From Liolophura sinensis (lineage: Eukaryota > Mollusca > Polyplacophora > Chitonida > Chitonidae): a stretch of DNA of 64,000 bases. Below are positions 15,165-62,018 of this stretch, in pieces. How positions within the stretch are numbered: the first letter of the stretch is position 1; each line of letters begins with the position of its first letter. The notes under the pieces were generated by a model that saw only the letters and a list, made by a program, of their open reading frames with translations, was not told the origin of the DNA and searched no databases. The position numbers and the translations under genes were made by a program. Location: positions 73,771,005 to 73,835,004 of the forward strand of contig NC_088300.1 of assembly GCF_032854445.1 (NCBI RefSeq). Direction: 5' to 3'.

Positions 15165-18100
15165 ATGTCGACTTCGGGAACGAATCTACGCTTACACAAT
15201 GGTGTAGAGATGCCTCTTGTTGGATTTGGTACATTTCAAGGATCGTATGAGGTTTGAAAGTTTTGCATGGGATGAACGGTTAATGTTAGAATGAGAGCAG
15301 CTTAGCTTGTCTGTAATGTATGACCCGATGTGTATTGCCCATGATACGAGCACGTACTGCATAGCTTTCCACAAACCCATGGTTCTATGTCCAAATCTGT
15401 TGTACGGAAGCCCTTTCCCACACCTGTCTCAGTTACTTCTCTTGGTAACTGGCCGGAGGGGAAGCCAGCATGCACACAGGTCTATTGTCTTGAGAATTAA
15501 AAGTATCTCCCCTTCCTGGTGACTACTTAATGACGCTTGAAAGCAAAGGAACATAAGTATCTGGTGTTTTATAACGAGACTATTAATTTGATATTTAAAT
15601 TTGAGAAGAATTAAATGTGAGATTTATGTTTTAAGTTTACGACAGATCAATCATATCTTCAAGTTTATAAATATAAGGTATGTCCCTGTCGTTGAGGTAC
15701 ATACACTGGTTCCTTGTCGTAAATGACCCACTTGTACCTCGTCTGTGACGGTGGTATATCATATTACGTTCCCTGTTATCCCCGTGTTATCTCTCTTGCA
15801 TCCCCGTGTTGACAGTGTGACCAGAATGTCGTGGTCAAGGCTACTAAAGAAGCTATAGATGCCGGTTATCGCCATATAGACACTGCCCAAGTGTACAACA
15901 CAGAAACTGGGGTGGGACAAGCCATTAGGGAGAAGATAGACGAGGGCAAGGTGACACGGGCTGAGCTGTTTGTCACTACCAAGGTGAGACAGAGATGATG
16001 GTGTTGCATCGTTGTAGTAGTAATAGTAGGGGCAACAGTAGTAGTGCTTGCAGTAATGGAAATAACATTAGTATTAGCAGCGGTACGTAGTAGCACTAGT
16101 AGAAACTGTAGCCTTAGCGGCAAAAGTTGTAATAATACTATTAGCAGTAGTTGTAACAGTAGTAGTGACATTACTATTCAGGACCATTAGTAGTAGTAGG
16201 AGCAGTAGTACTTGTAGTAGTAGCACCGACAGCTGTATCGTTTGTAATAGTAGCAGTAGTAGTTATAACGGTAGCAGGAGCAGTAGTACTTGTAGTAGTA
16301 GCACCGACAGCTGTATCGTCTGTAATAGTAGCAGTAGTAGTTATAACGGTAGCAGGAGGAGTAATACTTGTAGTAGTAGCACCGACAGCGGTATCGTTTG
16401 TAATAGTAGTAGTAGTAGTTATAAGAGTAGTAGGAGCAGTAGTACTTGTAGTAGTAGCACCAACAGTTGTATCGTTTGTAATAGTAGCAGTAGTAGTTAT
16501 AATGGTAGCAGGAGCAGTAATACTTCTAGTAGTAGCACCATGAGCTGTATCGTTTGTAATGGTAGCAGTGGTAGTTATAATAGTAGTAGGAGCAGTAATA
16601 CTTGTAGTAGTAGCACCATGAGCTGTATCGTTTGTAATAGTAGCAGTGGTAGTTATAAGGGTAGTAGGAGCAGTAGTACTTGTAGTAGTAGCACCAACAG
16701 TTGTATCGTTTGTAATAGTAGCAGTGGTAGTTATAATGGTAGTAGGAGCAGTAATACTTCTAGTAGTAGCACCATGAGCTGTATCGTTTGTAATGGTAGC
16801 AGTGGTAGTTATAATAGTAGTAGGAGCAGTAATACTTGTAGTAGTAGCACCAACAGCTGTATCGTTTGTAATAGTAGCAGTAGTAGTTATAAAGGTAGTA
16901 GGAGCAGTAGTACTTCTAGTAGTAGCACCATAAGCTGTATCGTTTGTAATAGTAGCAGTGGTAGTTATAATGGTAGTAGGAGCAGTAGTACTTCTAGTAC
17001 TGAGCTGTCGTTTGTAATAGTAGCAATAGTAATTATAATGGTTGTAGCAGCAGTAGAAGTAGTAATTATTCCGGGTATGACAGCAGTAGTACTAGTAGAA
17101 GTACTAGTAGCAATAGTAGTAGAAGTTGCCGTTGTAGTCATAGTTGTTGTAGCACTATGGCTGTGTCGCTTGTAGAAGCAGTAGAAGTAGAAGCAGTAGA
17201 AGTAGAAGCAGTAGAAGTCGAAGCAGTGGCAGTCTTGGGCAAAGTAGTAGCCGTAGTAACTACTTTAGTTGTGATAGTAGATTTAGTTGTTTAAGAAATT
17301 TGAAAACAAAAAAACTGTCCACATGAACCTGCAATAGTGACACTTTCATGTTTTCTCTTAACCAATCATTTAGCTATACCACTTTCTCGCTGCTTCTTTC
17401 CAGCTATGGAGTCACGCCCACAGACGTTGTGACGTTATACCCGCCCTAAAGAAGAGTCTGCAGACGATGGGCCTAGATTACGTGGACCTGTTCCTCGTAC
17501 ACTGGCCAGTAGCTCTCAAGGTATGATCTGAACGAGGAGGTTATCGTGCTGAAATCCTGTTATAATCTTGTTACTGGATTATTGGTCTGGATATAATCAT
17601 ATATTAGCTGAAATTAAAATAACTTGTATTTAAAACCAGCCTAAGTGAAAACATCTTTTTAGAATTAAAGTAGTTGTATATGTAAATGAAGCTATCACTG
17701 TAGATGGTTCGGTACCCAATTTCAGCTATGTGAAGTCATTTGGCTCTTCTTTACCGTGATGGCACCATGTATATTTCCACTTTAAACTTTATCTCAGGCG
17801 TCCTTGGATATTTTTTTCCCGCGAGATGAAAACGGGGAGCTTATTTTTGCTGACAAGGATATTGACTATGTTGAGACTTGGCAGGTATGTTGGTATTCAT
17901 ACGCACTTGATCAAGACTTGGCAAGTACACTAGTGTTCATACGTACTTGATCAAGACTTGACAGGTACGCTGGTATTCATACGCACTTGATCAAGACTTG
18001 GCAAGTACACTAGTGTTCATACGTACTTGATCAAGACTTCACAGGTACGCTGGTATTCATACGAACTTGATCAAGACTTTGTAGGTACGCCGGTATTCAT

Positions 18101-21100
18101 ACGCACTTGATCAAGACTTGGCAGGTACTCTGGGGTTCATACGCACTTGATCAAGACTTGCCAGGTGCGCTGGTATCCATACGCACTTGATCAAGACTTG
18201 GCAGGTACGCTGGTGTTCATACGCGCTTGATCAAGACCTGGCAGGTGCGCTGGTATTCATACGCACTTTTGATCAAAAGATCCCGTCACTACTATTATGT
18301 TGGGGGTTTCCATGGCGGGGGGGTGGGGGTGGGAGTGAGGGGTGAGCCCGCCAGCACGGCGCAATGACCCATGCGGTCGCTGTGAGTTCAAGCCCAGCTC
18401 ATGGTGGCTTCCTCTACGGTCATGCGTGGGAAGGTCAGCCAGCCAACTGGATGGTCGTGGTTTTCCCCCGGGCTCTAGCCGGTTTTCTCCCACCATAATG
18501 CTGGCCGCCGCCGTATAAGTGAAATATTCTTAATTGATTACGGCGTAAAACACTAATCAAATAAATAAAAAAAACTGTTGTGTTCACATAATCATGAACA
18601 CCTTCTGAATGCTCCTAGGGTATGGAAGACGCTTTGGAGGCCGGATTGACAAGGGCTATTGGTATTTCAAACTTCAATGAACGACAAATAGCGAGGGTCT
18701 TGAAAAACTGCAAGGTGAAGCCCATGAACCAACAGGTACGTGACCAGAAGCAGAGTAAACAGGTGCTCATACAGTTTGGGTCCACGCTGCCTGATCAATC
18801 TAAACAATAATATTAGAGATCACTAATGGCTTCTGGCTTCCAATCCCGTTATGATGAAAGGCGAATCGACAGTAAGGCTAACATGAGGGGTGAAATGTCT
18901 CTGAGTAAAACACCACGGAACAACAATTAAATTTCAAAGAATAGATTTTCTTGCGTTATGTTTTCAATTTTTTAAACTATTTTGGCGTCTGTGATAGAAG
19001 GTTTGAATGAATGATGATATACTGAAGACCTTATAAATTGTTAGATTTGTTTTTTTATTATTATTATTATTTACCTCGTTGTTGTCTGTTACCTGAAGGA
19101 AAATTGTCTGTGTCCCTTCCGCAGATAGAAAGCAATCCTTATTTCAACAATAATCAGCTGATACAGTTCTGTCAAAGTCATGGTATTACAGTAACTGCAT
19201 TCTCACCACTGGGCAAGCCAGGACGAACGTGGCAGTGAGTACAATAAAGCTTTTCAGGAATGTTCATTTATTTATTTATTTGATTGTTAGTTGACCCCAT
19301 ACTCGAGAAGTTCAGGAATACCAGTGTATATATATTCAGTTTCTTATGTAAGACCGCACTTTGTTGAAGGTGATATATATACGTTATTAAATTACAACTG
19401 TATAAAGACTTGTACTTTGTATTCTAATTGCTACCCTGGATGTCTTACAAGCTCCAGTCTTATAATTTCAAGCATATTTGTATACAAACCAAAGAATAAC
19501 CTGTTTGTAAGATCGTGTAATATCCTCGTTGGCATTTGAACCCGCTTTGTTGTCTGTCAGTTATTACTAGCATATTGTCCCATTGACGAGTGAACTGAAT
19601 ACGCCATGTGCTAAACGTTGAACTTGTCATTACGTGTATTTATGGTAAATGTCACTCGATCTATGTTAGAACATGGTTGACATATTTAATATATGTATAT
19701 GGACGTGAGGGAAACATGCCCTTTACTACAGAAAAGTTGTGCTTGTGCATTTTTCTTCTAATTGCTGGTTTAACATCAGATACAAATGTACTAGAAGAAT
19801 CCACCAAGGTGGACGATCGACTTTGCCTTTCTCATCAGAGCCAAGATGATAATAGGCTACCCTTACCGATAAGCTGTTATAACGCCTTTATCCTATTAAG
19901 TCAAATATTACCAAGTCTTATCATACTAAGTCAAACGTTACCAAGCCTTATCATACTAAGTCAAATGTTAAAAAGTCCTATCATACTTAGTCAAATGTTA
20001 CGAAGTCCAACATTCCAAATGTTAAGCTTCGTGTTTGGTTTCATCTGCATTTGATAGGAACAACCCTGATGACCCTTATGTGGCCACAGATAAGGTGTTG
20101 ATCTCGATAGGTGAAAAATATGGGAAAACTCCTCAACAGGTAACAGGTTGCACTACACCATTATACACGCAATACTAAAAATCTGTAATCTACGAATATG
20201 TCAGTCTATATCTAACTTGGAAAGAGCGATAACATAATATAGAAATGCATTCACTATGGCGCTGTCCTATAGTCTGCATGTTCAAATGTCACCAGGGTCA
20301 AAGTAAGCTCTACTATACACAGGAAATTGTGAGCTAATTTGCGGCCCAATTAGTAGTTTATAACTTTTTTTTTAATTTTTCAATAAGGCAAATCAATATT
20401 CATGATAACAATGCATGATACGGTGACTGCGCAAATGACGCTGATAAATATTTGGAATTTTTGTTAGATTTGTGTTCACAGCTGAGCCTGTTATATTTTC
20501 TCAAAGGCTCTTTTCACCTATTATCATTATCTTCAGCGAATATGCGTGTTTTGGGTTTGATTATCAGCCATCCCTTTTTGACGTTGATAAAATTAAGATT
20601 AAGGAACCTTTTCTTAAACGTGAGCTGACTGAGTGTAACAGAAGCAAACCTTCATTGGTGTGCAACAGACACCTAACTATTCTCGAACATAAATCAAGTT
20701 GATAGAAATGGAGTCTTCTGTTTTACAGATCGCTCTAAAATTCCAAGTTCAGAGAGGTGTGGCAATTATTCCTAAGTCTAACACACCGTCCAGGATCAGG
20801 GGCAACCGAGAGGTAATACAAGGCTCAGGGCAAAAGTGATTCCGAAAAAGAACTATAATCTTGACCACTTCCTTTTCTGGATACAGTTCTGTAGGCACAA
20901 CGATCGTCTTCATTATTGATAACTTTGCAAGCTCTAAGCACAAGATGCACAAGCACTAAGGACATGCTTAACTTGATGCATGAAAACAACATTGAGTGTC
21001 AAAACTGCGCCATTGTCTGGTAAACTGTTCTTCCAACTTGATGACACGTTTTCACAGTTCAAAACCCCCGTAGGGTTTTTTGCAAACTAATTCTTTTAGA

Positions 21101-21906: not shown

Positions 21907-22179
21907 CGTTTAAGTGATGTCGTGAATGTCAATCTAGTCCCATATTTTATGGCCAATATGCTGCTCCATATTATATCCAAACTAGAGTATATATGTTTAT
22001 ATTTACATGTCAGTATCAAAAAGCACGTGACACGTAAGAAACTGTGATTCATTTGACTGATAATTGATTTTAAAATCTAATGATAATCCTATGAAATGGT
22101 TGAATCGTTATTAGATAGTACAGGAAGAAACTTCTCTAGTGTTATTTGTCACAAGACCAAAAAATATATAGATATATAA

Positions 22180-22212
22180 AGTGAAGAGATATATGGCATA
22201 TATCTGTTCACT
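22180..22212. repeat. near-perfect 33-bp inverted repeat (hairpin)
   Basis: AGTGAAGAGATATATG and CATATATCTGTTCACT pair as reverse complements apart from one mismatch pair near the outer third, with almost no loop. It lies about 275 bp after the AKR stop and could fold in its 3' UTR. It could equally be the remnant of a small inverted-repeat element. Confidence 0.6.
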
Positions 22213-22495
22213 ATAGCATTAGTCATGAACTGGTGAAGTAAATGTATCCACGAACATTGGGTTTGTCAGACATAGAAGTCGATGTAGAGGCGTACTAATG
22301 GGAATGAAGATCGTGTAACTAAAACGTGATCACTTCAAAAAATACCGAATGTTCGGTCTAACTGACGCACCAAGGCAAGGATAGATTTACAACTTGGCGC
22401 AAAGTCGCAAAGGTTGTAATTGCGTAAGATCATAAAATTTGCATTGTAAAATGAGAACAATATACTCAGTAAAGATAATCTTCCTTCTCAAGATG

Positions 22496-22501
22496 AATAA
22501 A
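22496..22501 (+). promoter_or_regulatory. candidate polyadenylation signal of the AKR gene
   Basis: AATAAA about 590 bp downstream of the AKR stop codon, followed by a TG-rich stretch (GTTCTGATTTCTGTCTGTC) of the kind found downstream of cleavage sites. No transcript evidence is available here. Confidence 0.4.
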
Positions 22502-22744
22502 TATAAAGCACAACTATTCCGTAGAGAATTGTATTGTTTATTGTTCTGATTTCTGTCTGTCTGTTCTGATTTCTGTTTCTTGCAAACATAGTTCAGGTAA
22601 ACGCTGTCGCCATATACCTGTCCAGTCCTCTTGCTTTTTATCTGGATATATTTTTGAACAAGTGGGCCCAGAAGACACCGTCATATTCAGTGTCGACTGA
22701 GACAATGATAACTATCAGCATATACTGCACGAGGTAAACTTCCC

Positions 22745-23010: not shown

Positions 23011-23049
23011 TACCAAGTTCAGGTGTACGCACACAGCGACACTGAAGAC

Positions 23050-24328: not shown

Positions 24329-24329
24329 A

Positions 24330-31800: not shown

Positions 31801-34800
31801 TTGTCCCCCTGTAGGTATGGGCCCCCAACACACCATGCAGATAGCTGAGAGGCTTTATACCCAGGGTTACATCAGCTACCCCAGGACAGAGACCACCAGC
31901 TACCCAGAAAACTTCGACCTCAAGTTAGCCCTAACTTCCTTTCATGTTTGCCACATTTATTTTATATCGGTTTATCTGCTATACATAGAAAGTACCTTGC
32001 TTCAGTCAGACTGTGGTCTGGAAACAATTCATCGTGTTAAAGCAGATTTTAATATTTGTCCATTTTATGTAAAAATCTTGCAGGGTGTTTGTCTAAAATT
32101 ACTTGCTTGGCATTGTTATGGTAACATGTGGACGATGTATGGTATTTGAGGTCACAAGAGTCACCTGCCTGGCTTAGCAGTACGTTCCATGATTACACAA
32201 GATGTAATTTGTACTAATTGTGTTCATATACATGGAATACAAAGTACATTTGATAAAGGTGTACCATCACACTGCTCAGGAAAATAGGAGAATCACGGCC
32301 ATCTGAATTGTTTTAAATATTGAACGGAAATGTGGTATGGTTAGTATTACCAAAGCATGAATTATTTCAGGTTTTTGGTCAATGTTTGTTATGATGCTAC
32401 TGTATTGAAAACAGTTGTTTACAATTTCAGAGGGACATTAAAACAACAGGCATCAAGTCGTGTGTGGGGAGAAGAGGTCAGAGAACTGCTAAGCCAAGGC
32501 ATCCAGAAACCAAAGTGAGTCTGGGCAAAGTATGAGTTTTTTCAACATTTGTCAACATGTACTTGCAGTTGTTTACACACCAGTGTATAGGTCATTATAA
32601 TGTGAAGGCTTTTTAAACTTTTCATCACTTTACTTCCATGTGAGGAATAGGTAGAAAAAAGTCGTACTGTATCATGTGACCTGTCAAAAATGTGAGACAA
32701 CTATTATTGATTGCATTTCCTATAACATGGGTGTCTTCAAAAAGTTATTTTGAGTAGATGAACGATGGAGAAAACTTGAGAAGCTGAATGTTGGTGTACA
32801 TGAGAAGTTTCTAAAGGATAGAAAGATGGTGACTGAGTGTGGTGTCGTGTCTGATGTCTTTGGCTTGATACTTCACAAAAGGACACCTTATATGTACACC
32901 CACCTAATGACTCCTGGCCGTCATGTGACTGAAAAGTTGCTAAGTACATGTACATCATAAAACCCTGAGCATTCAGTTATTCATTCTTATTGTTTTGTCT
33001 TGGGTAACTAAGGAAAGGTCATGATGCTGGAGACCATCCTCCTATCACCCCAATGAGAGCAGCCACAGAGGATGACCTAGGGCATGATGGCTGGAGACTG
33101 TATGATTACATTACAAGGCATTTTATCGGCACAGTAAGTCAGTCATTATCTATAGTAAATATTACGTAACATTACAGTACCTCTGTGATGGTAAATTATT
33201 ACCACAGACAACAACAAAATGAGAAGTGTTAGAGAAAGCTCCCTACTCAGTATTAGAAGCACCATCATCAGTGTGGGTAACATGCTGTTGCTCAGGTACA
33301 TAGTACTGTAGGGTGGAACACCAAATGATTGCACATGTGTTTATAAGTTACAATCTCTTTATACTTACAGATTTGAAATTAGATGAACATCTAAGTATAT
33401 GGTGTTCATATGTGATTAGTCCGAGTGAACATTTCTTGGGTAGCTAATCAACAGTAAATAGAAACAAATAAATAAATATGGGATTAAATCTGTTATTTTC
33501 TCATAGTCATGCAATGTAATGGTTTTTTGATTCATCAAGGCTTCATTACAAATCTTAATAATTTTATAAAATCACTGTTGTATACATATGTACATGTACA
33601 ATGATAGCTACTTGTGTTTACAGCTGTCCCCAGACTGTCGTTACATGCAGACAAAGATCACATTTGAGATAGGTAAAGAGAAATTTAGCCTCTCAGGTAA
33701 CCGCCTTCTAGACCCTGGGTTCACATCCGTCATGCCGTGGCAGGCCCTGACCAGTGATGAGGAACTACCCACCTTTGAAAGGGGACAATTACTCGGCATC
33801 AGTGAGGTAACCAGAGTGTGCCAATCATTTCAGTAGATCTGCCTTCCCTTTTTGATATCTATTTATTTTGTTATGTCTTTAATTGGTGTTTCACCTTATT
33901 TAAGCTGTTGGGGACTAAATTGATTGTAGCTAGTTACTGTGTATGTGTATAGGTTTTCATTTTTTGTTTTCAAGGTAGCCATATTCAGTAGTTTTGAACT
34001 TTGTTCCTTTTTACAGGTGAAGATGGTGGAGCGTCAGACATGCCCACCTGACTACCTGACAGAGAGTGAGTTGATTACACTGATGGAGAAGCATGGGATA
34101 GGTACAGATGCTAGCATACCTGTCCACATCAACAATATCTGTGAGAGGAACTATGTCAACATCATTGCCGGGCGTAAACTCAAGCCTACCACACTGGGCA
34201 TTGTCCTGGTTCATGGCTATCAGAAGGTAAAACCTTTCTTACACCTCAGTCTGATAAAGCTTTAAAGTTATCAGTGTTAAAAAGCCATATCTGTTCAAAA
34301 TGGTTTGCATACACCTTTAAAAGGTAGAACCACATTAGCTGTGTACCCTTCTGCAATCTTCATGTGACAGAAGTTGGCAGTTCAGTATAAGGAAACCTCT
34401 ATTTGCTAGTCTTCAAAGATTTTGTCTTTGAAAACAGTTTATTGTGATTTTTTTCTAATTTTGTCATGATAAACCTGCTTGCATGTCACAAGTTACACCT
34501 GTACATATGTTATGTGCTTTAAATGGCAGCCCATTTACGTATGTGGCATGTTATACATGTACCTGTTTTCTGATACATGGTGTGTCATCCCTGTCAGATT
34601 GAATGACTCAGATTTGGTTCGGTCCACCACCAGATCAACCGTGATAACTTATACCTGTATTTGTGTGTCTTTCTGTCAGATTGACTCAGATTTGGTTCGG
34701 TCCACCATGAGTTCAGCCATGGTAACTTATACCTGTGTTTGTGTGTCTTTCCTGTCAGATTGACTCAGATTTGGTTCTGTCCACCATGAGGTCAGCTGTG

Positions 34801-37800
34801 GAGCAGCAGCTGAATCTCATTGCCATGGGCAAAGCAAACTTTCATGCTGTACTCCAACATGCCGTGGACATTTTCACCAGGAAGTTCAAGTATTTTGTGG
34901 AGAACATTATGGCGATGGATGAGTTGTTTGAGGTGTCGTTCTCGCCACTGGCTGACAGCGGCAAGCCACTCTCAAGGTATGTATCGGCTTCTTAGTGATC
35001 TCATCTACACATCTCCATTTGGACTACTTAAGTATCTGTAACGTACTAGTGGGACTCCGTGGCCTAGATGCCATGGTGGTTCACTCCATCTTCTTCCATG
35101 TGTAAAACTAACCTTTGTGGCATTGTGAAATATTCTGCGGTCAACTCAATCATTAGGATCAGTATATTTTTAAAAGAAAGGAAATAACATTCTGAGTTTG
35201 TTCTTATCAAGAAGCTTTCTGTTCAGCAGATGTCCCCCACAACAGGGTGTCTGGGATCAGCTAATTCAACCCATAATGTCATAGTACGATAGTCAGTTTG
35301 TGGAACAAGCAGGTTTAGAGTGTGTGTGGGAGACCTCTATGGCTCAGTTGGTTAGCGCGCTAGCGCAGCGTAATGACCCAGGAGCCTCTCACCAATGCAG
35401 TCACTGTGTGTTCAAGTCTATCTCATGCTGGCTTCCTCTCCTGGCCATATGTGGAAAGGTTTGCCAGCAACCTGCGGATGATCATGGGTTTCCCCCGGGC
35501 TGTGCCCAGTTTCCTCCCACCATAATGTTGGGTGCCGTGGTGTAAGTGAAATATTCTTGAGTACGTCATAAAAAACCAGTCAAATAAATAAATAGAGTGT
35601 GTATGTTGTTCAAATCTTGCAAAGGTGTAAAGTGAAAGTTTTGATTAGTTAGTAACCTGAGCTCCTGACCTTTGACCTGACAGGTGTGGCAAGTGTCGAC
35701 GTTACATGAAGTTTGTCCAGGCTAAGCCATGTCGCTTACACTGCTCCTCATGTGACGAGACATACACCCTGCCCCAGAATGGCAACATCAAACTGTACAA
35801 AGAACTCAAGTGTCCCTTAGACGAATTTGAACTGGTGCTGTGGACAACAGGCCTGAAAGGAAAGGTAACTCTCACATAGAATGATGTTTCCAATGTTCTT
35901 ATTACATGTATTGTACAGTTATGTCAGTCGTTAGTTCATCTAGATAGACTCAGATGTGCTACTTCAAAATTCTGCCATTGTTATTCACTGAGAATTTGCT
36001 GTATATTCCAAAACTTGTGGCACTCAGCTCACGTTCAAATGCCACTCCAGTGCCATTTGTGATGAATCTTGGCCCCTGGATTACGAAGCAGTTTCAAATG
36101 AGTTAAAAACTCTTATTTGTGATGTAATTTGTGATGTAATAAGGTTAAAATATTGCTTGATAATTAAATTTTTTAGGGAGTTAATGTAAAACAAATATCA
36201 GCTAAAATAACGGAAAGGAACATTCCAATTTTGCCTTAAGTCTAAGATTGCTTCATGATCCCAGGTGTTGAAGATTAACTTCTTGATTCACTAGCCGCAC
36301 CTTCTCGTTAGAAACCCCCCAGTTGACATATTAACTGCAAAAACTGATTGATACCCTACAACTTGCTGTTAACTGCCATTTTGAACCTCATTACGTGTAC
36401 ATTTCTTTCCTAGAGTTACGCTTTGTGTCCCTACTGCTACAATCATCCTCCGTTCAAAGACATGCGTAAGGGGATGGGGTGTAATGAGTGTACTCACCCT
36501 ACCTGTCAACACAGCGTCTGCCAGAATGGCGTCTCAGAGTGCGTGGAGTGTGACAGGGGTATCCTCGTACTCGACCAGTCATCTGCTCCCAAGTGGCGTA
36601 TGGCTTGTAATAAGTAAGTTTTTCATTCGGAGTCAGTGTAGCCTGACAAGTTCTTGATATTTATAATAGTAAGCTTATTGAGAGTTTGTTGAGTGCTCTT
36701 GTTGAAGTATAAAAGTGTTTCAGTGTTTCAGACATTTTCAAAAGATACATAAAAAAGACGAGTAGCAATACCAAAATGTGCTTGATTGCCTTCATTGATG
36801 AAATAAGATGAATTCTTTCAGGCAAATCAGGATGTCGTAGATGTGAGATACTTGGTAATTTACAGAGCCATCTATGGTAATTAAAAAGGTGTTTTAGATT
36901 ATGAGTTTGTTTAAACATATTGTCATCACAATATGGCTACACTCTTTCCTGAAGTGGCATTAAACAATCATCATTCATTCATACATTTTTTTAGATTATC
37001 AGGCTTTTTTCACTATGAAAGGACCACATTAGTGTGTCTGTGGAAACACTGCTGACAAACTGTACATCATCAGAAGCACCTAAGATTATATTATTACATA
37101 CATATGAGAGTCACAATGATATATATGAGGTGCACACCTAGACACCTGTTAATCAGATGGTGCGAGTCCAAACCCAAACCGGGGGAAGGAGTTTGACAAC
37201 TCTTCCGGCTCTCACTGTTTATGGGGTGTTGGTGACAATATGTGGTCACCAACACTCTTGTGGCTGTCTGATGTTTGTTGAAGACCACCAGCCTTCCATC
37301 ATTATAAGGTGCATATCTTTATATCACGCATGGAAAAGTTCACTGGTAATGTGCCAGAGGCTGTTGATTTACATTTAACATCCCAGTTTCCCACACTTCC
37401 TTAACTAACCGCCATTGTATAAGAGAAGAAAGTCTTGAGTATGGCATTATAACATCAATCAAAGGAGTGCCGTAAGTGATACATACATGTAGCAAGGTGC
37501 AAGCTGGAGTTTCCTCATACAAAACCATGTACATGTATCTTTACTTCCACTCCCACAGGTGTAATGTTGTTGTGAACTTTTTTGAGAATGCCCACAAAGT
37601 AGCTGTGTCGGAAGAGAGCTGTGAAGATTGTGGGGCCAGTCTAATGGACGTCGACTTCAACAAGGTAAATAAATTGTAACTCATTCAGGACAATGTCATA
37701 CCACATTTATAAGGATTTTGGGCTGTTTGAAAATGTGTCACCTTTAGGAATGTCACAGTTTCATAACTTTTGTAGACGGTTTCAGTGGCCCTCCCTAACA

Positions 37801-40800: not shown

Positions 40801-41615
40801 GTGATATAACAGACAATAATACACTATCAATTCTCACCTTCAGACTATCACTGAGGTGTTGTATGTACATGTAGTCATGTTGCGATATAACAGACAATAA
40901 TACACTATCAGTTCTCACCTTCAGGCTATCACTGAGGTGTTGTATGTACATGTAGTCATGTTGCGATATAACAGACAATAATACACTATCAATTCTCACC
41001 TTCAGACTATCACTGAGGTATTGTATGTACATGTAGTCATGTTGCGATATAACAGACAATAATACACTATCAGTTCTCACCTTCAGACTATCACTGAGGT
41101 GTTGTATGTACATGTAGTCATGGTGCGATATAACAGACAATAATACACTATCAGTTCTCACCTTCAGACTATCACTGAGGTGTTGTATGTACATGTAGTC
41201 ATGTTGCGATATAACAGACAATAATACACTATCAGTTCTCACCTTCAGACTATCACTGAGGTGTTGTATGTACATGTAGTCATGGTGTGATATAACAGAC
41301 AATAATACACTATCAGTTCTCACCTTCACACTATCACTGAGGTGTTGTATGTACATGTAGTCATGTTGCGATATAACAGACAATAATACACTCAGTTCTT
41401 ACCTTCAGACCAAGTCACCTCTAGAAGATGGTGCCACTGAGCACTCAGGATGTGTTTTCTGCGATCCTGTCTTCAAACCACTTGTGGAAAAAAACCACGC
41501 CATGACAAGGTTCATCCACCACCGTCCTTCAGGTGGGAGAGGAGGGCGTGGTGGCAAGAGGAGGGGGCGTGGCCGAGGGAGGGGAAGAGGAAGAGGTCGT
41601 GGACGGTCGCAGTAA
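25820..41615 (+). CDS. TOP3B: DNA topoisomerase 3-beta (17 exons, complete)
   Basis: Type IA topoisomerase that passes single strands of DNA, and in animals RNA, in complex with TDRD3. Exons: 25820-26053, 26913-26990, 27321-27434, 28067-28234, 29784-29918, 30444-30556, 31324-31415, 31815-31923, 32431-32514, 33013-33133, 33624-33806, 34017-34226, 34759-34976, 35684-35864, 36414-36613, 37559-37664, 41409-41615. All are GT-AG with matching phases and give 850 aa, close to the human protein. The N-terminus [12 protein letters not shown] and [10 protein letters not shown] (Asp116, Asp118, Glu120) form the Toprim domain. The active-site Tyr333 sits in [10 protein letters not shown]. The TOP3B-type segment [14 protein letters not shown] is intact. 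Exons 14-17 encode Cys-pair zinc fingers and an RG-rich tail, features that separate TOP3B from TOP3A by overall match. No break was seen. Intron 16 is filled by an 81-bp array. Confidence 0.97.
26470..26575 (+). mobile_element. SINE family 1 fragment in TOP3B intron 1
   Basis: TGCGGATGGTTGTGCTTG, CGAGCTCTGCCTGTTTTCC, CACCATAATGCTGGCCG, then an AAATAAATAG tail. The middle is shortened. Confidence 0.6.
27501..27625 (-). mobile_element. degraded SINE family 1, minus orientation, TOP3B intron 3
   Basis: TTTATTTATTTATTCAGTTG, GTGTTTTATGCTGTACTC and AGATGGCCACATTAT can be aligned to the reverse complement of the SINE, with many differences. Confidence 0.5.
27903..28037. mobile_element. MITE-like element with 17-bp inverted ends, TOP3B intron 3
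   Basis: Left end GGGCCAGTTTCACAGAG; the reverse complement of the right end is GGGCCACTTTAACAGAG (two mismatches). About 135 bp, non-coding, ending about 30 bp before TOP3B exon 4, so it may overlap the branch-point region. Confidence 0.55.
28557..29697 (+). repeat. 76-bp minisatellite, 15 copies, TOP3B intron 4
   Basis: A highly regular 76-bp unit containing GTGTCAGTCATGAATTACTG, TAAGTGGTGATTG and the perfect 16-bp palindrome GTATCACATGTGATAC (GTATCATATGTGATAC in some units), then TGATCACCTCCACAG. Each unit has an acceptor-like CACCTCCACAG and, about 28 nt later, a donor-like CTGTAAGT. The array ends about 85 bp before exon 5. Confidence 0.93.
30661..30873 (-). mobile_element. SINE family 1, minus orientation, TOP3B intron 6
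   Basis: Well-preserved reverse-complement copy: tail, TTGATTGGTGTTTTACGCCA, TTTCACTTATACGACGGCGG, CAGCATTATGGTGGGAGG, AACCGGGCAGAGCCCGGGGG, CCGCAGGTTGATG, CTTGAACTCACAGCGACCGC. The first part of the tRNA-like head is missing. A target duplication GTTAATG flanks it at 30654-30660 and 30874-30880. Confidence 0.9.
32770..32960 (+). mobile_element. SINE family 2 3' part, TOP3B intron 9
   Basis: GTACACCCACCTAATGACTC, CTGGCCGTCATGTGACTG, AAAAGTTGCTAAGTAC and AAAACCCTGAGCATTCAG match the 3' region of the copy at 22745-23010. Confidence 0.6.
33858..33905 (-). mobile_element. short SINE family 1 tail fragment
   Basis: TATTTATTTTGTTATG then TTTAATTGGTGTTTCACC. Heavily degraded; TOP3B intron 11. Confidence 0.4.
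34595..34800 (+). repeat. three tandem copies of the TOP3B exon 13 acceptor and exon start
   Basis: The real exon 13 begins at 34759 after CCTGTCAG with ATTGACTCAGATTTGGTTC, TGTCCACCATGAGGTCAGC. Two upstream copies of the same acceptor and first about 40 exon bases begin at 34598 (with a 4-bp insertion) and 34680, at periods of 82 and 79 bp. Splicing to the 34680 copy would run into a TGA just after the true acceptor, so only the 34759 acceptor keeps the frame. Confidence 0.9.
35049..35150 (+). mobile_element. degraded SINE family 1 remnant
   Basis: GGGACTCCGTGGCC at the start and TGTGAAATATTCTGCGGTC near the end recall the SINE head and tail, with the middle shortened. TOP3B intron 13. Confidence 0.35.
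35327..35592 (+). mobile_element. SINE family 1, full length, TOP3B intron 13
   Basis: TATGGCTCAGTTGGTTAGCG (A box), CGCAGCGTAATGACCCAGGA, CTCACCAATGCAGTCACTGT, GTTCAAGTC (B box), GGTTTCCCCCGGGCTGTGCC, TTTCCTCCCACCATAATG, AAGTGAAATATTCTTGAGTA and a CAAATAAATAAA tail. A 10-bp target duplication TAGAGTGTGT lies at 35316-35325 and 35593-35602. Confidence 0.93.
36071..36265. mobile_element. MITE, second copy, TOP3B intron 14
   Basis: Related to 24109-24328: left end GGCCCCTGGATTACGAAGCA, interior AAAATATTGCTTGATAAT and AACAAATATCAGCTAAAATA, right end TTAAGTCTAAGATTGCTTCA then TGATCCCAGG. Confidence 0.7.
37378..37463 (+). mobile_element. SINE family 1 tail fragment, TOP3B intron 15
   Basis: CATCCCAGTTTCCCACAC, CCGCCATTGTATAAGAGA, GTCTTGAGTATGGCATTATA and CATCAATCAAA align with the SINE 3' half. 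It ends about 95 bp before exon 16. Confidence 0.5.
37933..41408. repeat. 81-bp minisatellite, about 43 copies, fills TOP3B intron 16
   Basis: Each 81-bp unit contains TTGTATGTACATGTAGTCAT, GATATAACAGACAATAATAC, ACTATCAGTTCTCACCTTCAG and ACTATCACTGAGGTG. The last, incomplete unit ends in GTTCTTACCTTCAG, which is the true acceptor of TOP3B exon 17 at 41409. All other units carry the near-identical TTCTCACCTTCAG. Five sites vary among units and define higher-order blocks of 8 and 9 units (648 and 729 bp). Since 81 is divisible by 3, the minus strand stays open for 1147 codons. Confidence 0.96.
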
Positions 41616-50535: not shown

Positions 50536-50539
50536 TCTA

Positions 50540-51709: not shown

Positions 51710-51715
51710 TTTATT
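51710..51715 (-). promoter_or_regulatory. AATAAA overlapping the aminopeptidase stop codon
   Basis: On the minus strand the coding sequence ends CAA CAA AAA TAA AGC, so the hexamer AATAAA spans the stop codon TAA. Whether it is used for polyadenylation is unknown. Use would give a 3' UTR of only a few tens of bases. Confidence 0.35.
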
Positions 51716-54700
51716 TTTGTTGCAGACGGTTCAAAACAAAATGTGTTGCTAAGGCAACAATAGGGGCTCCTGTGGGGATTCCTGGGAAGGGTCCTGAGGA
51801 TCCAGCTATGTCCATGTGAGAATATGGCAGAGGTTTCTCAGAGTCTATCCCGTGCTGTAATGAGACAAAATCACAAACATGTGAGAATATGGCAGAGGTT
51901 TCTCAGAGTCTGTCCCATGCTGTAATGAGACAAAATCACAAACATGTGAGAATATGGCAGAGGTTTCTCAGAGTCTATCAGGTGCTGTAATGAGACAAAA
52001 TCACAAACATGTGAGAATATGGCAGAGGTTTCTCAGAGTCTGTCCCATGCTGTAATGAGACAAAATCACAAACATGTGAGAATATGGCAGAGGTTTCTCA
52101 GAGTCTATCTGGTGCTGTAATGAGACAAAATCACAAACATGTGAGAATATGGCAGAGGTTTCTCAGAGTCTATCCCGTGCTGTAATGAGACAAAATCACA
52201 AACATGTGAGAATATGGCAGAGGTTTCTCAGAGTCTGTCCTGTGTTGTAATGAGACAAAATCACAAACATGCGAGAAAATGGCATAGGCTTCTCAAAGTC
52301 TATCCCATGTTGTAATGGGACAAATTTACAAACGTGAGAATGTAGCGGGGATGTCTCAGTCTATTGAACCCGTGGTGTAATGAAACAAATGTGGAATCAA
52401 GTAGTCTCTGAAAAATGTGCCTCATTTCTGTCTACACCATTGCTATGGGGAACCAGGCCCTGGTAATAATACCTAAACCTTTTTGCATATTACGAAATGA
52501 CCATATGTTTGTGTTAAACATGCATGTCAAGAAATGACCATATGTTTGTGTTAAACATGCATGTCAAGAAATGACCAGATGTTGGTATTATACACGCATG
52601 TCAAGAAATAACCAAATGTTGGTATTATATACCCATGTTAAGGAATGATCAAATGTTAGTATTATTTATGGAGGTGTATCACTAACCATGGTCAAGATGG
52701 CCAGATTTGTAAGTAAAGCTTTTGTGTATAGATTATATGGTTCCAGCTTAAAACAACACCCACATCTAGGTCGAGTCCAATAGAAAACAAAGTAAACCCA
52801 TTTTGTTTTTATCTAGTGTGGTCTAGCCCACACAAATCTGAATCGGATGGCTGGCTTGCGCTGAGACTGGCCATATCATGGTCTTGGCTTTGGTGAATTA
52901 TGTTCCCAGTTTCCTTTACACGTTATACCCCAACCAAAAAACACCTGATAACTGCTACTATCAATTATACCCCAACCAAAAAACACCTGATAACTGCTAC
53001 TATCAATTATACCCCAACCAAAAAACACCTGATAACTGCTACTATCAATTATACCCCAACCAAAGAACACCTGATAACTGCTACTATCAATTATACCCCA
53101 ACCAAAGAACACCTGATAACTGCTACTATCAATTATACCCCAACCAAAGAACACTTTCTTGTTAAACTAGAAAACACTTGATAACTGCTACTATCAATTA
53201 TACCCCAACCAAAGAACACTTTCTTGTTAAACTAGAAACACCTGATAACTGCTACTATCAATTATACCCCAACCAAAGAACACTTTCTTGTTAAACTAGA
53301 AACACCTGATAACTGCTACTATTAATTATACCCCAACCAAAGAACACCTGATAACTGCTACTATCAATTATACCCCAACCAAAGAACATCTGATAACTGC
53401 TACTATCAATTATACCCCAACCAAAGAACACTTTCTTGTTAAACTAGAAAACACTTGATAACTGCTACTATCAATTATACCCCAACCAAAGAACACTTTC
53501 TTGTTAAACTAGAAAACACCTGATAACTGCTACTATCAATTATACCCCAACCAAAGAACACTTTCTTGTTAAACTAGAAACACCTGATAACTGCTACTAT
53601 CAATTATACTCCAACCAAAGAACACTTTCTTGCTAAACTAGAAACACCTGATAACTGCTACTATCAATTATACCCCAACCAAAGAACACTTTCTTGTTAA
53701 ACTAGAAAACACCTGATAACTGCTACTATCAATTATACCCCAACCAAAGAACACTTTCTTGTTAAACTAGAAAACACCTGATAACTGCTACTATCAATTA
53801 TACCCCAACCAAAGAACACTTTCTTGTTAAACTAGAAAGCACCTGATAACTGCTACTATCAATTATACCCCAACCAAAGAACACTTTCTTGTTAAACTAG
53901 AAAACACCTGATAACTGCTACTATCATGTGAGCAGTGACGACCTATGACAATGCAGTTCACTGACTGACCTTGTCCAACCCAGAGGCCATAATCATGAAA
54001 GCTGATGGTGACTGATGACCTCTATTTGTCCTTGAAGATGGTTCATTGTTAGATGACAGTAAGTCTTCATACTCTGACTTCCCACGATGGAAATCATAAT
54101 CCTGCCAAGGTAAATAATAAGTAAATGTAAGAAGATATCATCTGACAAATTTCTATATTGATAACATTGTCCAATGATTTAACTTTATTGACGTACAAGT
54201 ACATGTACATACAGTGTATCTGTAGAACGCTGGATTCCTGTAAGATCAAAGCCTGTCATACAAGAGCAATCTTCCAAATGAATATTTAGAAACTTTTTAG
54301 AATTTATCAATTCACTATTTTAAAAAAATGCACATTTTTTCACAATAAAAAACAACAGCAATTGTGCAGCATGAAGGCTGAGAGGTGGTAGAACTAACTG
54401 TAGTATCCAACAAAAACATTCTTTTCTAATTCTGCTAATTCTTTTCCCTCCATGCAATAAGTCAGTAGCTTGAACAGTGGTAGTGCACAGTACCAGGCAG
54501 CCATATTGAGCTCAAAAGTGACATACTGAACAGGCAGCAAAATTCAACAAAGGAAGGACACTGTTACTGCTGACTGGATTTTTGCTCTGAATACAGCAGT
54601 ATGGTGATATCAGGCTGTATTACAAGCTTACAAACTAGATGTACCTGTGTATGTACTCACCAGACATGCATGATATGATGATTGAGAAGTAAATATAGGA

Positions 54701-57700
54701 TAATAATTTAATTGGTGACATGTACGTTATCACATCTAGTCTCTGATTTACAGCCCAGAGCACTGAATACTATTGAAGATGTCTAACATTTAAGCAGCTG
54801 CCAACTTAATGAATGCCAATAAGCTTGGTGGGTGTTTGTAGTGTTCCCTGAACTGTTAACAATGCTCAGACTTTAGAAAAGCCATCAAATATTTCACGTA
54901 CATTCTGTGGCCTAAATTGGGTATGGTACATGTATATGATGTATATTGATGTCACAGTCCTTTTCTCTAATTTCGTATAAGTCTGAAAATGTTTCTTACG
55001 TCTCTCCTGATGGTGGAGATCTCAAATGGGTCACCCATTATGTCACCAGCAGCCTGCACTTTCTGTGCAGTGTTCAACTTCCTTGCTGGGCCATTATCCA
55101 TAATGATCTAAAACATCAGACATGTAAGCAAATTTTGTGAAATATTAATTTTAAACACCGTATAAACATGTACATCTTAAATAATATAGTCTTAAATCGT
55201 GTCTATCTTATTTCACAGACCAGAGCAAAAGTGGAATGTTGTTCGCTAATACCAGTGTACTACCATGAAGTTAACCACTGTTTTCTGTGGCGATTAAATA
55301 CCACAAAGAAAAATAATGCTACAAGGAAATCAACAAAGAACAATCAAATGGACAAGGCAAGCAGCTGTAAACTTTTCACTTGATTGATTTAATTATTTGA
55401 TTGGAGTTTTGTGCTGAACATTTCACGTACTGGCAGACCTTCCCATGTACTGGGGACCGAAGAGGAACCTATCATGACCTAGACTTGAACTGACTTGAGA
55501 GCACATTGTTGAGAGGCTCCTGGCCACAGTGCTGCGCTATCATGCTAACCACTAGGCAAGAAGCTCCCCCCCCCCATAGTACATGACAGTAATCCTAACA
55601 TAGTAGAATACAGAAGATTCAGAACTTACGGAATAGTTTGGTCCCATACTCTTAATGGCGTGCCCAGTCAGTGTTGCTATGGTGAATAACTGTGGGTTGA
55701 CTGCCTCAAGAGCCTAAAAAGTAAAATCAGTAACAGTCCACATGTACATGTACAATATTCATCATGTACATGTAGAATTTTCATCGTGTACGTGTACAAT
55801 ATCCAACATGTACAATACTCAACATGTATGTGTACAATATTCATCATGTACGTGTACAATATTCAACATGTACAATACTCAACATGTATGTGTACAATAT
55901 TCATCATGTACGTGTACAATATCCAACATGTACAATACTCAACATGTATGTGTACAATATTCATCATGTACGTGTACAATATTCAACATGCAGGTGTACA
56001 ATATTCAACATGTAGGTGTACAACATTCAACATGTATGCGTACAACATTCAACATGTGCATTATTCAACATGGACTGAAATAGGAGCTTGAGGACACTGA
56101 TAATGAGAAAAACAAGCATTCACCTTGTTGATTAATAGCAAAACAATACTGTAAATTTCTCACAAGGACATAACATCCACCTGTATGTAGGAATCTTACG
56201 TCAAAAAAGCTGATGTTACAATATTCAATCAAGAAGACAACACCAATGTGCTAAAATTAAATTGTATGGTTATCTCCTTTTAATCTACAAATAGGCCAGC
56301 TTCAGAAATAAATAATTTAACTCTTTTCAAATTACTGACAGCACCACATGTACGACCATCAAAGTTTAAAATTCGATCAAATACTGTGCCCATGTCATTA
56401 AAATTGGGGACATCTCATCCCATGAAGATATTAATATTTGAATGTCAGGGGAGATAATCACCTTCAATTCTGGAACAAAGACACTTGGCTGTATGTTTTG
56501 TTTCTTTTAATTCAGAGTATTTTTGGCACATCATTATGAAGCTCTTTCTGATCTTCTTTTACACATGTTTAAATAAATACTAATTTAACTGGTTTAATTT
56601 CAATAAAAAAACTGAAGAATTAAAATTTGCTCCATATTACCATGCCTGCGTATAAAATGTGCCGAAACACAGATATGTTTTTGTGCATAGAGTTACTTCC
56701 CCTTACCCTCTCTTTCATCCTGCAAAGAACATCTGTCATGACCATTCGGCCCTCAGCGTCAGTATTACCCACGCGGATCCTGACCCCAGCCCGTGAGGTG
56801 ATGATCTCATCAGACACATAACCCTCTGCAAACATGGCAAAGGATTACATGTCAAGAATAGGGTAAAACAGAATAACAGTACCCAACTAAATGCAGCAAG
56901 GAAACGGAATTCATCAAGAAAAACAAGAACAGAATCTCAGACGTATTATTCACCGTGCAAAAACAGAAATCATCTTCACGGCTGTGTGTTCAATCAGACA
57001 TACATGTAGTTATGTACAACTAGACTGCCAAGATATGTTAAAGAATGGGTGGGACATATGGTTGTATGTTTCACAAAGTGAAATAACGTACAGGTACATG
57101 TAACTGCATGTTCTGTTCAGTCACCTGGCCCAACACTGTTCACTCACCTGGCCCTACGCTGGCCCTACACTCTTCACTCACCTGGCCCTACACTCTTCAC
57201 TCACCTGGCCTCACACTGTTCACTCACCTGGCCTCACACTGTTCACTCACTTGGCCGCACAATGTTCATTCACCTGGCCCTACACTCTTCACTCGCCTGG
57301 CCCTACACTCTTCACTCGCCTGGCCCTACACTCTTCATTCACCTGGCCCTACACTCTTCACTCACCTGGCCCTACAGTGGTTACTCACCTGGGCCTACAT
57401 TCTTCACTCACCTGGCCCTACACTGTTCCTCACCATGGCTAATCCTCCTACGACCTTCAGGCCTTTAGGTTTAGCCAAGGACAGCATCTGTAACAAGATA
57501 CATGTACATATTACCAAACAAAAACAGCTCATGGTTGCCAGAGATCTTTCAAAATAAGAATTCCTGACTTCTGATGAACTCATAAGATCAACACTCATGA
57601 CTTAATTGAACAAACTGGTAAAAACTGTAAACATGTTTGAGTGTTAACATGATTATTTTGATTGCATATTGGTACACACAACACACACACACACACACAC

Positions 57701-60700: not shown

Positions 60701-62018
60701 CCTTCCTGCTTCCAGTGCTGTTGCCACGGCAATTCCATTTTTTACACGAGCCTCATCATTACACCAAATACCGAGTTTCTCAGCTTTTGATGCTTTCTCA
60801 GGAAGATCATCACGGATTTCTATTGGCTGAAATAAAAATCATTTCGCCATGAATTTTGTACAATTATTTCATATTTAGAATTTAAAGAAAGAATACAATA
60901 TCTAGCACATTTCGTTCACTAGTCCTGATGTTATATAAATTTCAAATTTTCAGAAATAAACATACTGGTACACAGATTTAAGATGTAAAAATATTTGGTA
61001 CAGTAATACAAAAATCACAAGCTGTGTTCATTTTCATATCTTAAAGTCCCTTCATATGTCATACTTAAACCTAAATTTTAGATAGAACCAACACAGGCCA
61101 ATTTTCGAAACAACAACTATTGTTATAATTACAGTGATAGCACAAGTGTGCCAACATCATACAATGCATTACATGGAAGTACAAACCAGACAGAATTTCA
61201 AAACAAGGTTGTCAGCTGTCATGACTGTGTCCTTACCACATAGAGAGCATGCAAAGCTCCCAGAGTTGCCACACTTCCTGCGAACTGGAAACTCTCATCA
61301 ATAGGACGAACCAACAGGGGCTTCTTACATCCGGCCTGCAGGGCCCTGAGGATTAAACAGTAGCCATCAGTAACATACATCAACAAATACTCATCCATCA
61401 CATCCAGCCTGAGGTGTGCTGGCTGGGATCATCTTTTACTACTGCACAGGTTAATTAAACAGCTTGAGAAAACTTAGCGAAGATAGAGATAAATAAACAT
61501 ACTTATCACCCAACAAAATTTATTTTTCCCTTTATTTTTTATTGTTACCTCTTAATTCCTTTCTGAGCTGCATCTCCAAAACGCCTTACATCATCAAAAT
61601 CTCTGTTCAGGGGTCCAGTGGGTGCATATATCTGAAGCACATCCATAACAGAGTTTAACTAGAAGCAAAAATGGTCAAAAACTTGCTGAAAATAACTTCA
61701 AGTATTTCAGTCAGCGTTCGAGAACATTGTTACTACATGAGTACAGTCTATCCACCTCATGCAACATCATTTACACAAGAATTTCATTTGCATTAGGATA
61801 CAGCAAAAATTAAATCACAACCAGCTTTCTGTACTCAGGTGAAACATTACAAAACTTGAAACAAGGCTTTGTCAAAGACATACAGTTTCTTCTGTGATAT
61901 GCTAGAGCTGGGGTGTGTGGGTGAGTGAAGAAAAGCTAATCCTTGACCTCACCAATCGCTTTGAGGGTACAGCATCAGTCTTCACAATAACCACTTCCCT
62001 GTTGAAAGCACTATCCAC
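51711..62018 (-). CDS. M17 leucyl aminopeptidase family protein (14 exons, 5' end missing)
   Basis: A two-metal cytosolic exopeptidase by family; nearest in my recall to the invertebrate putative aminopeptidases of the C. elegans W07G4.4 type. Exons in gene order: 62018-61953, 61631-61549, 61345-61237, 60826-60702, 60509-60410, 60137-60062, 59210-59125, 58497-58393, 57487-57412, 56825-56707, 55713-55630, 55107-55000, 54101-53970, 51854-51711. All are GT-AG with matching phases and give 470 aa. The M17 residues are all present with bovine-like spacing: Lys215 (FVGK), Asp220 and Lys227 (TYDTGGLDIK), Asp238 (MHRDKCGAA), and Asp298, Glu300, Arg302 (NTDAEGR). The C-terminus has DIAGSSGPF. The first visible exon, with KRLIYAPTGPL at its junction, is not the N-terminus; about 40-60 residues are missing. 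Many introns carry tandem arrays. Confidence 0.94.
51790..52380 (-). repeat. 65-bp array repeating the last-exon splice acceptor and exon start
   Basis: On the minus strand each unit reads TTGTCTCATTACAG then CACGGGATAGACTCTGAGAA, ACCTCTGCCATATTCTCACATG. The copy next to the last coding exon (acceptor at 51855) is the real one. Six near-identical units lie upstream at 65-bp steps (51920, 51985, 52050 and so on) and two decayed ones reach about 52380. The duplicated module is an acceptor plus the first 45 or so coding bases. 65 is not divisible by 3, so the copies cannot add in frame. Confidence 0.93.
52492..52650. repeat. 37-bp tandem repeat, about 4 copies
   Basis: Unit GAAATGACCATATGTTTGTG followed by TTAAACATGCATGTCAA, increasingly diverged to the right; in the last aminopeptidase intron. 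Confidence 0.8.
52926..53925. repeat. composite 42/65-bp minisatellite in the last aminopeptidase intron
   Basis: The core 42-bp unit TTATACCCCAACCAAAGAAC continuing ACCTGATAACTGCTACTATCAA appears about six times alone. In most later units it carries a 22-23 bp insertion CTTTCTTGTTAAACTAGAAA. Short and long units are interspersed. Frames on both strands (about 92-95 codons) are by-products of the 42-bp period. Confidence 0.93.
55380..55567 (-). mobile_element. SINE family 1, minus orientation, aminopeptidase intron
   Basis: ATTATTTGATTGGAGTTTTG, a shortened middle with CTGGCAGACCTTCCCATG, then AGACTTGAACTGACTTGAGA, GAGAGGCTCCTGGCCACAG and CTGCGCTATCATGCTAACC, which is the tRNA-like head. It ends about 60 bp before the exon at 55630. 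Confidence 0.8.
55740..56070. repeat. 60-bp tandem repeat built on TGTACAATATTCA
   Basis: A 60-bp unit of three 20-bp sub-units (ATGTACAATACTCAACATGT, ATGTGTACAATATTCATC, ATGTACGTGTACAATATCCA) repeated about four times, then sub-units alone. It sits just upstream (minus strand) of the exon 55713-55630 but does not contain its acceptor. Confidence 0.88.
57115..57433 (-). repeat. 23-bp array repeating an aminopeptidase splice donor
   Basis: On the minus strand the exon 57487-57412 ends AACAGTGTAGGGCCAG and is followed by gtgagtg. Twelve further 23-bp copies of GTGTAGGGCCAG-GTGAGTGA follow in the intron, so a near-consensus 5' splice site occurs 13 times. The first donor joins correctly to the next exon (CCA G|AG GGT). 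Reading past it gives CCA GGT GAG TGA, an immediate stop. Confidence 0.92.
57682..57702. repeat. (CA)n microsatellite
   Basis: About ten CA dinucleotides (ACACACACACACACACAC); aminopeptidase intron. Confidence 0.9.
57930..58085 (-). mobile_element. SINE family 1, minus orientation, diverged
   Basis: TTTGATTTGATTGGTGGTTT, TACGCTGTACTGAAGAATAT, TTCACTTATACAATGGCAG, GTATGGTGGGAGGAACCTGG, CCATCCACAGATTGCTGAC and TCTTCCCACACA. The head is missing. It lies in an aminopeptidase intron. Confidence 0.82.
58245..58325. repeat. 25-bp tandem repeat, about 3 copies
   Basis: Unit ACAATGCTGTATGGCTCACA followed by ACAGA; aminopeptidase intron, about 65 bp from the exon starting at 58393. Confidence 0.8.
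59390..59830. repeat. 31-bp minisatellite in an aminopeptidase intron
   Basis: Unit about 31 bp, GGTGGTTGGGAACAAATTGG followed by CTGTGACTGAA, clearest at 59580-59720 and more diverged on both sides. It gives three overlapping minus-strand frames of 84-139 codons, all considered by-products. Confidence 0.85.

Follow-up and report, generated by a model that had tools for sequence, protein, structure and literature searches.

Tandem arrays spanning exon-intron boundaries in mollusc genes resemble the mirages of amphioxus

Why do tandem repeats at this locus carry the splice junctions of their host genes within the repeated unit? In the window, the whole 64-kb stretch of DNA analysed, five arrays lie at exon edges of three genes (AKR, TOP3B and M17 aminopeptidase), and TRF recovered all five where a sequence-only reading had placed them. 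We assigned exact junctions in the three genes; the models have GT at 37/37 donors, AG at 37/37 acceptors, open frames and near-full-length domain matches (the spliced AKR protein matches PF00248 over positions 3-290/291). With these models, the real junction falls inside the repeat unit in four arrays, as had been claimed for all five, but the array at TOP3B exon 17 only abuts its junction.

The AKR array (17874-18268, + strand, 10 units of 40 bp) runs out of exon 4 (17798..17884, + strand; donor CAG|GTATGT at 17884), and each unit contains the last 11 bp of the exon and the donor; GT is present in all 9 decoy donors, that is, in every copy other than the real site. At the acceptor of TOP3B exon 13 (34759..34976, + strand), three copies of 78-79 bp (34604-34796, + strand, with the first copy beginning just upstream) each contain AG and about 38-43 bp of exonic sequence, and the join of exons 12 and 13 gives a gap-free alignment to human TOP3B (9cah). 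The aminopeptidase, on the minus strand, has two arrays. The first (57113-57439, - strand) comprises about 13 units of 23 bp, each with 13 exonic bp and a donor, at the exon 57412..57487 (- strand, donor CAG|GTGAGT), which is the eighth called exon, earlier numbered 10, and whose join to the next exon aligns without gaps to the protein of PDB 5ntf; its matched decoys read GT in 10/12 cases and GC in 2/12. The second (51813-52341, - strand, 8–9 units of 65 bp) lies at the acceptor of the last exon (51711..51854, - strand), with a unit made of 23 bp of intron end and 42 bp of the last exon, and AG is retained in 5/8 matched decoys. In the four straddling arrays, the coding part of the unit measures 11 to about 42 bp. 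The fifth array (37943-41410, + strand, 43 units of 81 bp) occupies most of the last intron of TOP3B and abuts the acceptor of exon 17, the last exon (41409..41615, + strand). Its unit includes the intron end and AG, and only ‘AC’ (2 bp) is common to the units and the exon. AG ends 42/43 matched copies, real site included; the sole non-AG copy ends AC and neighbours the real site.

Are five such arrays in 64 kb striking, as the sequence-only reading held? The window was picked for looking striking, and by itself it is only mildly surprising: among 13 arrays with a period of at least 20 bp within the three gene spans, 4 straddle a junction against 1.3 expected when the founding unit is placed uniformly (P(≥4) = 0.03), and the expectation rises to 1.8 (P = 0.09) once arrays are collapsed to one unit. 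All three genes of the window are affected, as stated before; in an independent sample, 8/19 loci have a spanning array.

This sample comprised 19 chaperonin and myosin loci with 68 intronic arrays, of which 10/68 span a junction against 4.5 (4.52) expected by random placement, a null unmatched for base composition or mobile elements (P = 0.012). The claim that junctions are tandemly amplified above a uniform expectation is therefore borne out, though unevenly: 7 myosin arrays span a junction against 2.5 expected (P = 0.011), and 3 chaperonin arrays against 2.0 (P = 0.32). When window and sample are pooled, the count is 14/81 against 6.3 (P = 0.003), among 22 loci in all. Affected junctions make up about 3% of those sampled (10 of about 300, two counted per called exon), and tandem arrays make up 18% of the sampled gene loci.

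Some arrays were excluded from the count: those with a period below 20 bp, outside the first-to-last called exon, or at least 80% exonic. One array at 1870-1908 of m7 (18 bp x 2.2) crosses a donor and was left out for its short period. The myosin array m5 11866-11999 is included in the 68, and the expectation with it is 4.52. Spanning status was judged by reading the sequence, and exon calls were adjusted by eye where a CCT3 exon was over-extended into an array, where a CCT3 decoy was called an exon, and where one myosin exon was over-extended. The CCT3 array 957-2127 was excluded, since the true donor precedes it by 12 bp. Some called exons of low score may be spurious; exons that escaped detection are missing from observed and expected counts alike. 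The list of myosin loci is partial (65/213 candidates scored), and two chaperonin loci had zero qualifying arrays.

What places the arrays at junctions? Spanning arrays are frequent here because arrays fill so much of the sampled loci and exons lie close together. About half of the spanning count is dense arrays amid dense exons; even so, the observed number is about double the random expectation, which speaks against a founding purely by chance. Tandem duplications may arise preferentially at exon boundaries and found arrays there more often than elsewhere, with transcription-linked strand breaks, R-loops or the raised GC content of exon ends as conceivable causes. We regard this as possible but doubtful. 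The excess of about 2.2-fold in the sample, mainly from myosins, speaks for it, as do the arrays that abut a splice site and include fewer than 5 exonic bp (at TOP3B exon 17, at a CCT3 acceptor and at a CCT6 donor; 3 against 0.9 expected, P = 0.06), and the lean towards donors, which make up 10 of the 14 spanning arrays, acceptors being 4 (two-sided p = 0.18). However, the chaperonins are near expectation, the null takes no account of composition or mobile elements, the named causes are suggestions, and the junction can lie anywhere in the unit.

This last point emerges from the shape of the arrays. Across the 14, unit size is 23-124 bp, each array has 2-50 decoys, and the coding sequence copied reaches about 112-115 bp. 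Exonic sequence makes up between 0.21 and 0.93 of the unit, and a uniform distribution is not rejected, with low power at n = 14, whether shares are taken by reading the sequence (KS p = 0.22) or from automatic extents (KS p = 0.20). The two differ in five arrays (exonic bp, read versus automatic: aminopeptidase donor 13 vs 17, CCT3 a 25 vs 52, m2 15 vs 11, m7a 15 vs 7, m7b 17 vs 22). The junction has no favoured place within the unit. Slippage starting at exon edges, one of the explanations offered earlier, finds no support here because an edge start predicts shares near 0 or 1.

Similar structures are known outside molluscs. In amphioxus, tandem repeats spanning exon-intron boundaries, first described by Canestro 2002 as cited in two later papers, are called ‘mirages’ (PMC3087553, PMC3902484). 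Mirages are reported to be unstable in length (PMC3087553, PMC3902484) and without effect on regular splicing (PMC3087553), and in the BflGb6 mirage the inner units are homogenised while the boundary units are exempt (PMC3087553). At donors as well as acceptors, their units run across the true exon edge and carry AG/GT in many but not all copies, as they do here, and unit sizes overlap (10-160 bp in amphioxus, 23-124 bp here). Exonic and intronic sequence of the real boundary are found together in the unit of 4/5 window arrays and of 10 sample arrays, at both 5' and 3' boundaries (10 donors, 4 acceptors), but not in that of the TOP3B exon 17 array. The amphioxus precedent removes most of the novelty. 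What differs is the mollusc host, the 14 spanning arrays in 22 loci and the up to 50 matched decoys; we consider the host to differ but the kind of structure to be the same. Two other systems come close. In the Rogers model, tandem duplication of genomic AG|GT leads to intron gain, as for potato RdRp (PMC4974935); such a duplication copies splice signals and exon sequence, as here, but creates a new intron, whereas the present arrays sit in introns and their extra copies would go out with them. Intron 3 of an abalone TSSK1-like gene holds a length-variable minisatellite with a 27-bp unit, likewise within a mollusc gene intron, for which, unlike the spanning arrays here, the portion seen states no exon-edge overlap (PMC6905558). 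A limited survey of partly accessible literature found no comparable junction-spanning arrays in molluscs.

The host is a mollusc and so lies outside the cephalochordates, the group in which mirages were described. Eight matches to the haemocyanin domain PF14830, which we take to be a mollusc domain, stand side by side in the genome. COX1 is directly flanked by frames that, judged by eye, are nad2 and cox2, with no space for tRNA genes, an order that we took as a pointer to the host group. The idea of a trematode host was considered and dropped. ARAGORN in bacterial mode, little informative for mitochondrial tRNA genes, found none, and a genome search gave no match for 5.8S.

Are the decoys maintained? 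The splice dinucleotide is retained in 159/169 matched decoys, and some units lack it. Counted by position, decoy GT/AG changed at 10/338 positions against 246/3042 surrounding ones (p = 0.0003), and decoy dinucleotides changed in 9/167 cases against 78/496 for the identical dinucleotide elsewhere in the unit (p = 0.0003). We set this position-level retention aside because copies within an array are non-independent, indels affect far positions, and retention by array gives p = 0.08 (Wilcoxon, 11 arrays). With the array as counting unit, there is neither purging nor clear retention of decoy GT/AG. The decoy exon copies diverge by 4.0/4.7/5.1% at the three codon positions (p = 0.30), so no coding constraint is seen. 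Together, these results leave the earlier suggestion that arrays tune splicing efficiency without support.

Would use of a decoy be harmful? The sequence-only reading held that a distal copy meets an early stop, and 23/26 intact window decoys do stop within the inserted piece, but the three nearest cause a frameshift with no stop in that piece; in the four spanning window arrays, 0/26 intact decoys are in-frame and open. Over window and sample, 153/159 intact decoys would give a stop or a frameshift on use; six CCT3 decoys remain in-frame and open, in steps of 22 codons. Selection might favour spare sites that tune splicing or make decay-fated transcripts. The preponderance of stops and frameshifts and the position-level retention would fit this, but the per-array result, the open CCT3 decoys and the wide variation in unit size and decoy number make it improbable.

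With a simple matrix, 111/208 decoys equal or beat the real splice site; in 14/15 arrays no decoy outscores the edge copy, and in one myosin array some decoys do. Since the letters of the site alone fail to separate the real site from many decoys, the exon-proximal copy would most likely be chosen by position, through exon definition, as the nearest partner across the exon.

We therefore consider the arrays to be, probably, local minisatellites whose founding unit chanced to overlap an exon-intron boundary, that is, mirages, which would be tolerated because the spliceosome settles on the copy nearest the exon body; that the observed counts are no more than about double those of random placement supports the minisatellite origin. 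A short tandem duplication would arise in gene DNA irrespective of the splice site. If wholly coding, it would tend to be removed by selection; if it straddled a boundary, it could survive because the copy adjacent to the exon body would still yield a correct mRNA and the extra ones would fall in the intron, where the array may grow and turn over. The earlier idea that selection keeps arrays removable from either boundary copy comes near this reading as tolerance, but not as positive selection.

Molluscs are known to carry mobile elements that contain internal tandem repeats, and parts of such an element might have landed at exon edges. Spanning units, however, carry the exon sequence of the host gene itself, and a genome search with two units, the spanning aminopeptidase last-exon unit and the abutting TOP3B exon 17 unit (very common words skipped), matched only their own loci; we rejected this origin as scarcely credible. 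Wrong extension of repeats during assembly is very unlikely: copy number is hard to assemble in repeats, and tandem mitochondrial copies on contig C99 may be artefactual, but substitutions distinguish the units, and one logic recurs in 14 arrays of varied unit size.

Mirages have so far come from a handful of amphioxus genes. Their presence in another phylum, at a frequency of a few per hundred sampled junctions, suggests that they are not peculiar to cephalochordates and not rare in places rich in minisatellites. Gene predictors should be warned that decoy copies may be called exons, as one profile did. More tentatively, exon boundaries could be preferred birth sites of minisatellites in one or more mollusc lineages, with several per cent of junctions genome-wide shadowed by intact decoys, a natural test of spliceosome choice and raw material for new exons (such as the CCT3 22-codon steps). 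Look-alike splice sites leave the cell to choose among many copies, a known but little studied phenomenon, and at the mRNA level it is presumably the edge copy that is used. Each array is a ready-made experiment, with up to 50 near-identical splice-site copies beside the real one; many decoys score equally by a simple matrix, so the choice must depend on more than the sequence of the site, most likely on position.

The window (C6:73771005-73835004 in a 609-Mb genome) contains an aldo-keto reductase gene and TOP3B on the forward strand and an M17 aminopeptidase gene on the reverse strand. Exons were set by open frames and splice signals, which yielded 39 exons (the aminopeptidase first exons and the reductase 3′ end lie outside this set) with intact frames, GT at 37/37 donors and AG at 37/37 acceptors. 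The spliced proteins match their domains at near full length (PF00248, 3-290/291; PF01131, 2-410/411, and PF23546, 1-40/40; PF00883, 3-287/310), and gapless alignments cover the TOP3B exon 12|13 join (against human TOP3B, a solved structure) and the aminopeptidase exon 8|9 join (against solved structure 5ntf).

The sequence-only reading had claimed that five arrays in these genes have a real splice junction as one of their units. TRF recovered all five and, with the exact gene models, four were found to span the junction: the reductase exon 4 donor array (40-bp unit, 11 bp exonic), the TOP3B exon 13 acceptor array (78-79 bp unit, about 40 bp exonic), an aminopeptidase donor array (23-bp unit, 13 bp exonic) and the aminopeptidase last-exon acceptor array (65-bp unit, 42 bp exonic). 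The 81-bp unit at TOP3B exon 17 holds the intron end and its AG and has only two bases in common with the exon, so this array abuts it. The AG end is kept in 42 of its 43 matched copies, real site counted; the sole exception, at 41330, has AC instead and adjoins the real acceptor. Elsewhere in the window, a 41/82-bp unit repeated over 7.3 kb (43281-50536, about 178 copies of 41 bp) occupies most of the TOP3B-aminopeptidase gap, and a dispersed repeat with a recurring translated peptide, at a guess perhaps a SINE-type element, lies near 8.0k, 13.2k, 14.5k, 18.3k, 30.6k and 35.4k on both strands.

Two samples were picked without regard to arrays. The chaperonin (PF00118) sample comprises all 9 loci with several exon matches (47 of 50 matches; the remaining 3, located in two long open frames, were excluded), and the myosin (PF00063) sample 10 of about 20 clusters, hand-picked for most matches per 10 kb; the clusters rest on 81 matches, which came from the 65 candidates scored out of 213. 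Exon calling with match-derived profiles, followed by refinement of the calls, gave 72 chaperonin and 79 myosin exons before hand corrections. Arrays of period at least 9 bp made up 45,034 of the 245,200 bp of sampled loci (18%). When each candidate edge was read in sequence, 10 arrays proved to span a junction, with at least one in 8/19 loci: one in CCT5 (109-bp unit, about 93 bp exonic), two in CCT3 (120-bp unit, at least 25 bp exonic; 66-bp unit, 44 bp exonic), and seven distributed over six myosin loci (units of 31, 32, 124, 82, 25, 31 and 95 bp). Two further arrays abut a splice site, one a CCT3 acceptor and the other the CCT6 donor. One exon of the CCT3 locus L007 lies between two arrays, a 41-bp unit reaching its acceptor and a 27-bp unit (about 43 copies) starting 12 bp past its donor.

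Are junctions hit more often than random placement predicts? Our null placed the founding unit anywhere in the gene span save wholly within an exon and counted as spanning any unit that reached at least 5 bp past a called junction in both directions; it covers placement and exon positions without base-composition matching, and the window itself had been chosen for its look. With arrays collapsed to one unit, 10/68 spanned in the sample against 4.52 expected (P=0.012) and 14/81 in window and sample pooled against 6.33 (P=0.003); uncollapsed spans lowered the expectation to 3.54 and 4.87, respectively. An excess over random placement was borne out by the sample as a whole and by the myosins (7/45 against 2.53, P=0.011; one array fewer than in the 68-array total), and fell short of significance in the chaperonins (3/22 against 1.99, P=0.32) and the window (4/13 against 1.82, P=0.09). 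Abutting arrays numbered 3/81 against 0.87 expected (P=0.06). Thus, spanning arrays exceed expectation about twofold, unevenly by sample, and the base rate is already high.

What is the mechanism of array formation? Duplication starting at exon edges, as the sequence-only reading had proposed, would leave the junction at the unit end. The exonic share of the unit ranged from 0.21 to 0.93 (mean 0.56), with no significant departure from uniform in a weak test (KS p=0.22, or p=0.20 with automatic extents; n=14). If decoy exon copies were translated, variation should concentrate at third codon positions; among copies of at least 75% identity, changes relative to the edge copy (the unit at the real exon edge) showed no codon-position bias (52/1294, 62/1329 and 67/1319 at positions 1, 2 and 3; p=0.30). 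Harmful, purged decoys would be expected to lose GT/AG, which was present in 159/169 matched decoys. By position, the decoy dinucleotides were even retained better than other sites (10/338 changed against 246/3042, and 9/167 against 78/496 in a second count); with the array as unit, retention gave p=0.08 over 11 arrays with at least 5 decoys. Most of the mechanisms put forward in the sequence-only reading are thus far unsupported.

Site strength was scored with a weight matrix built from the window's own sites, so that the window edge sites are within its training set. No decoy outscored the edge copy in 14/15 arrays, TOP3B exon 17 included, the exception being a single myosin array; yet 111/208 decoys tied with or beat their edge copy, 46 of them in that myosin array. 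The nearest decoy scored under the array median in five arrays other than TOP3B exon 17 (AKR, the reductase; CCT3 a; and the myosin arrays m2, m7a and m7b) and not in the others. If used, 146 of 159 intact decoys are predicted to run into a stop codon within the added segment, 7 to shift the frame and 6 to stay open in frame, the last all within one CCT3 array. At 7283-8137 of L007, counted on the turned (reverse) strand, the array's 66-bp units equal 22 codons, and 6/10 decoy donors would lengthen the exon in frame and stop-free, adding multiples of 22 residues to CCT3.

The host genome carries, on contig C8, eight neighbouring matches to PF14830, a haemocyanin domain that we take to be molluscan and that was absent from 14 control genomes, all prokaryotes. 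COX1 is open under code 5; the flanking frames were identified by eye as nad2 and cox2, then atp6. nad2, COX1 and cox2 adjoin directly, with no space for tRNA genes between, an arrangement that presumably suits molluscs and not amphioxus. Seven COX1 matches, one of them shorter, recur about every 15.5 kb on contig C99 (8348, 23885, 39496, 54929, 70450, 85975, 101504), reflecting either concatenated mitochondrial copies or a misassembly; one further match lies on C632.

Junction-spanning arrays are known as mirages in amphioxus (PMC3087553), to which a second paper adds PGBD5, with mention of troponin C (PMC3902484). An abalone TSSK1-like gene has an intronic minisatellite for which no overlap with exons is described (PMC6905558). 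Outside amphioxus we found no report in the literature searched, mostly non-subscription journals and seen as listings.

Spanning arrays probably arise by ordinary minisatellite amplification, blind to junction position, and would be tolerated since the copy nearest the exon remains usable. Such indifferent growth with tolerance fits these results, leaving only the twofold excess, and possibly the abutting arrays, unaccounted for. By the simple matrix, site strength fails to settle the choice in roughly half of the cases compared, and we infer that splice sites are probably chosen by position. Spanning arrays are real and frequent in this chiton and extend a structure of known type to another phylum.
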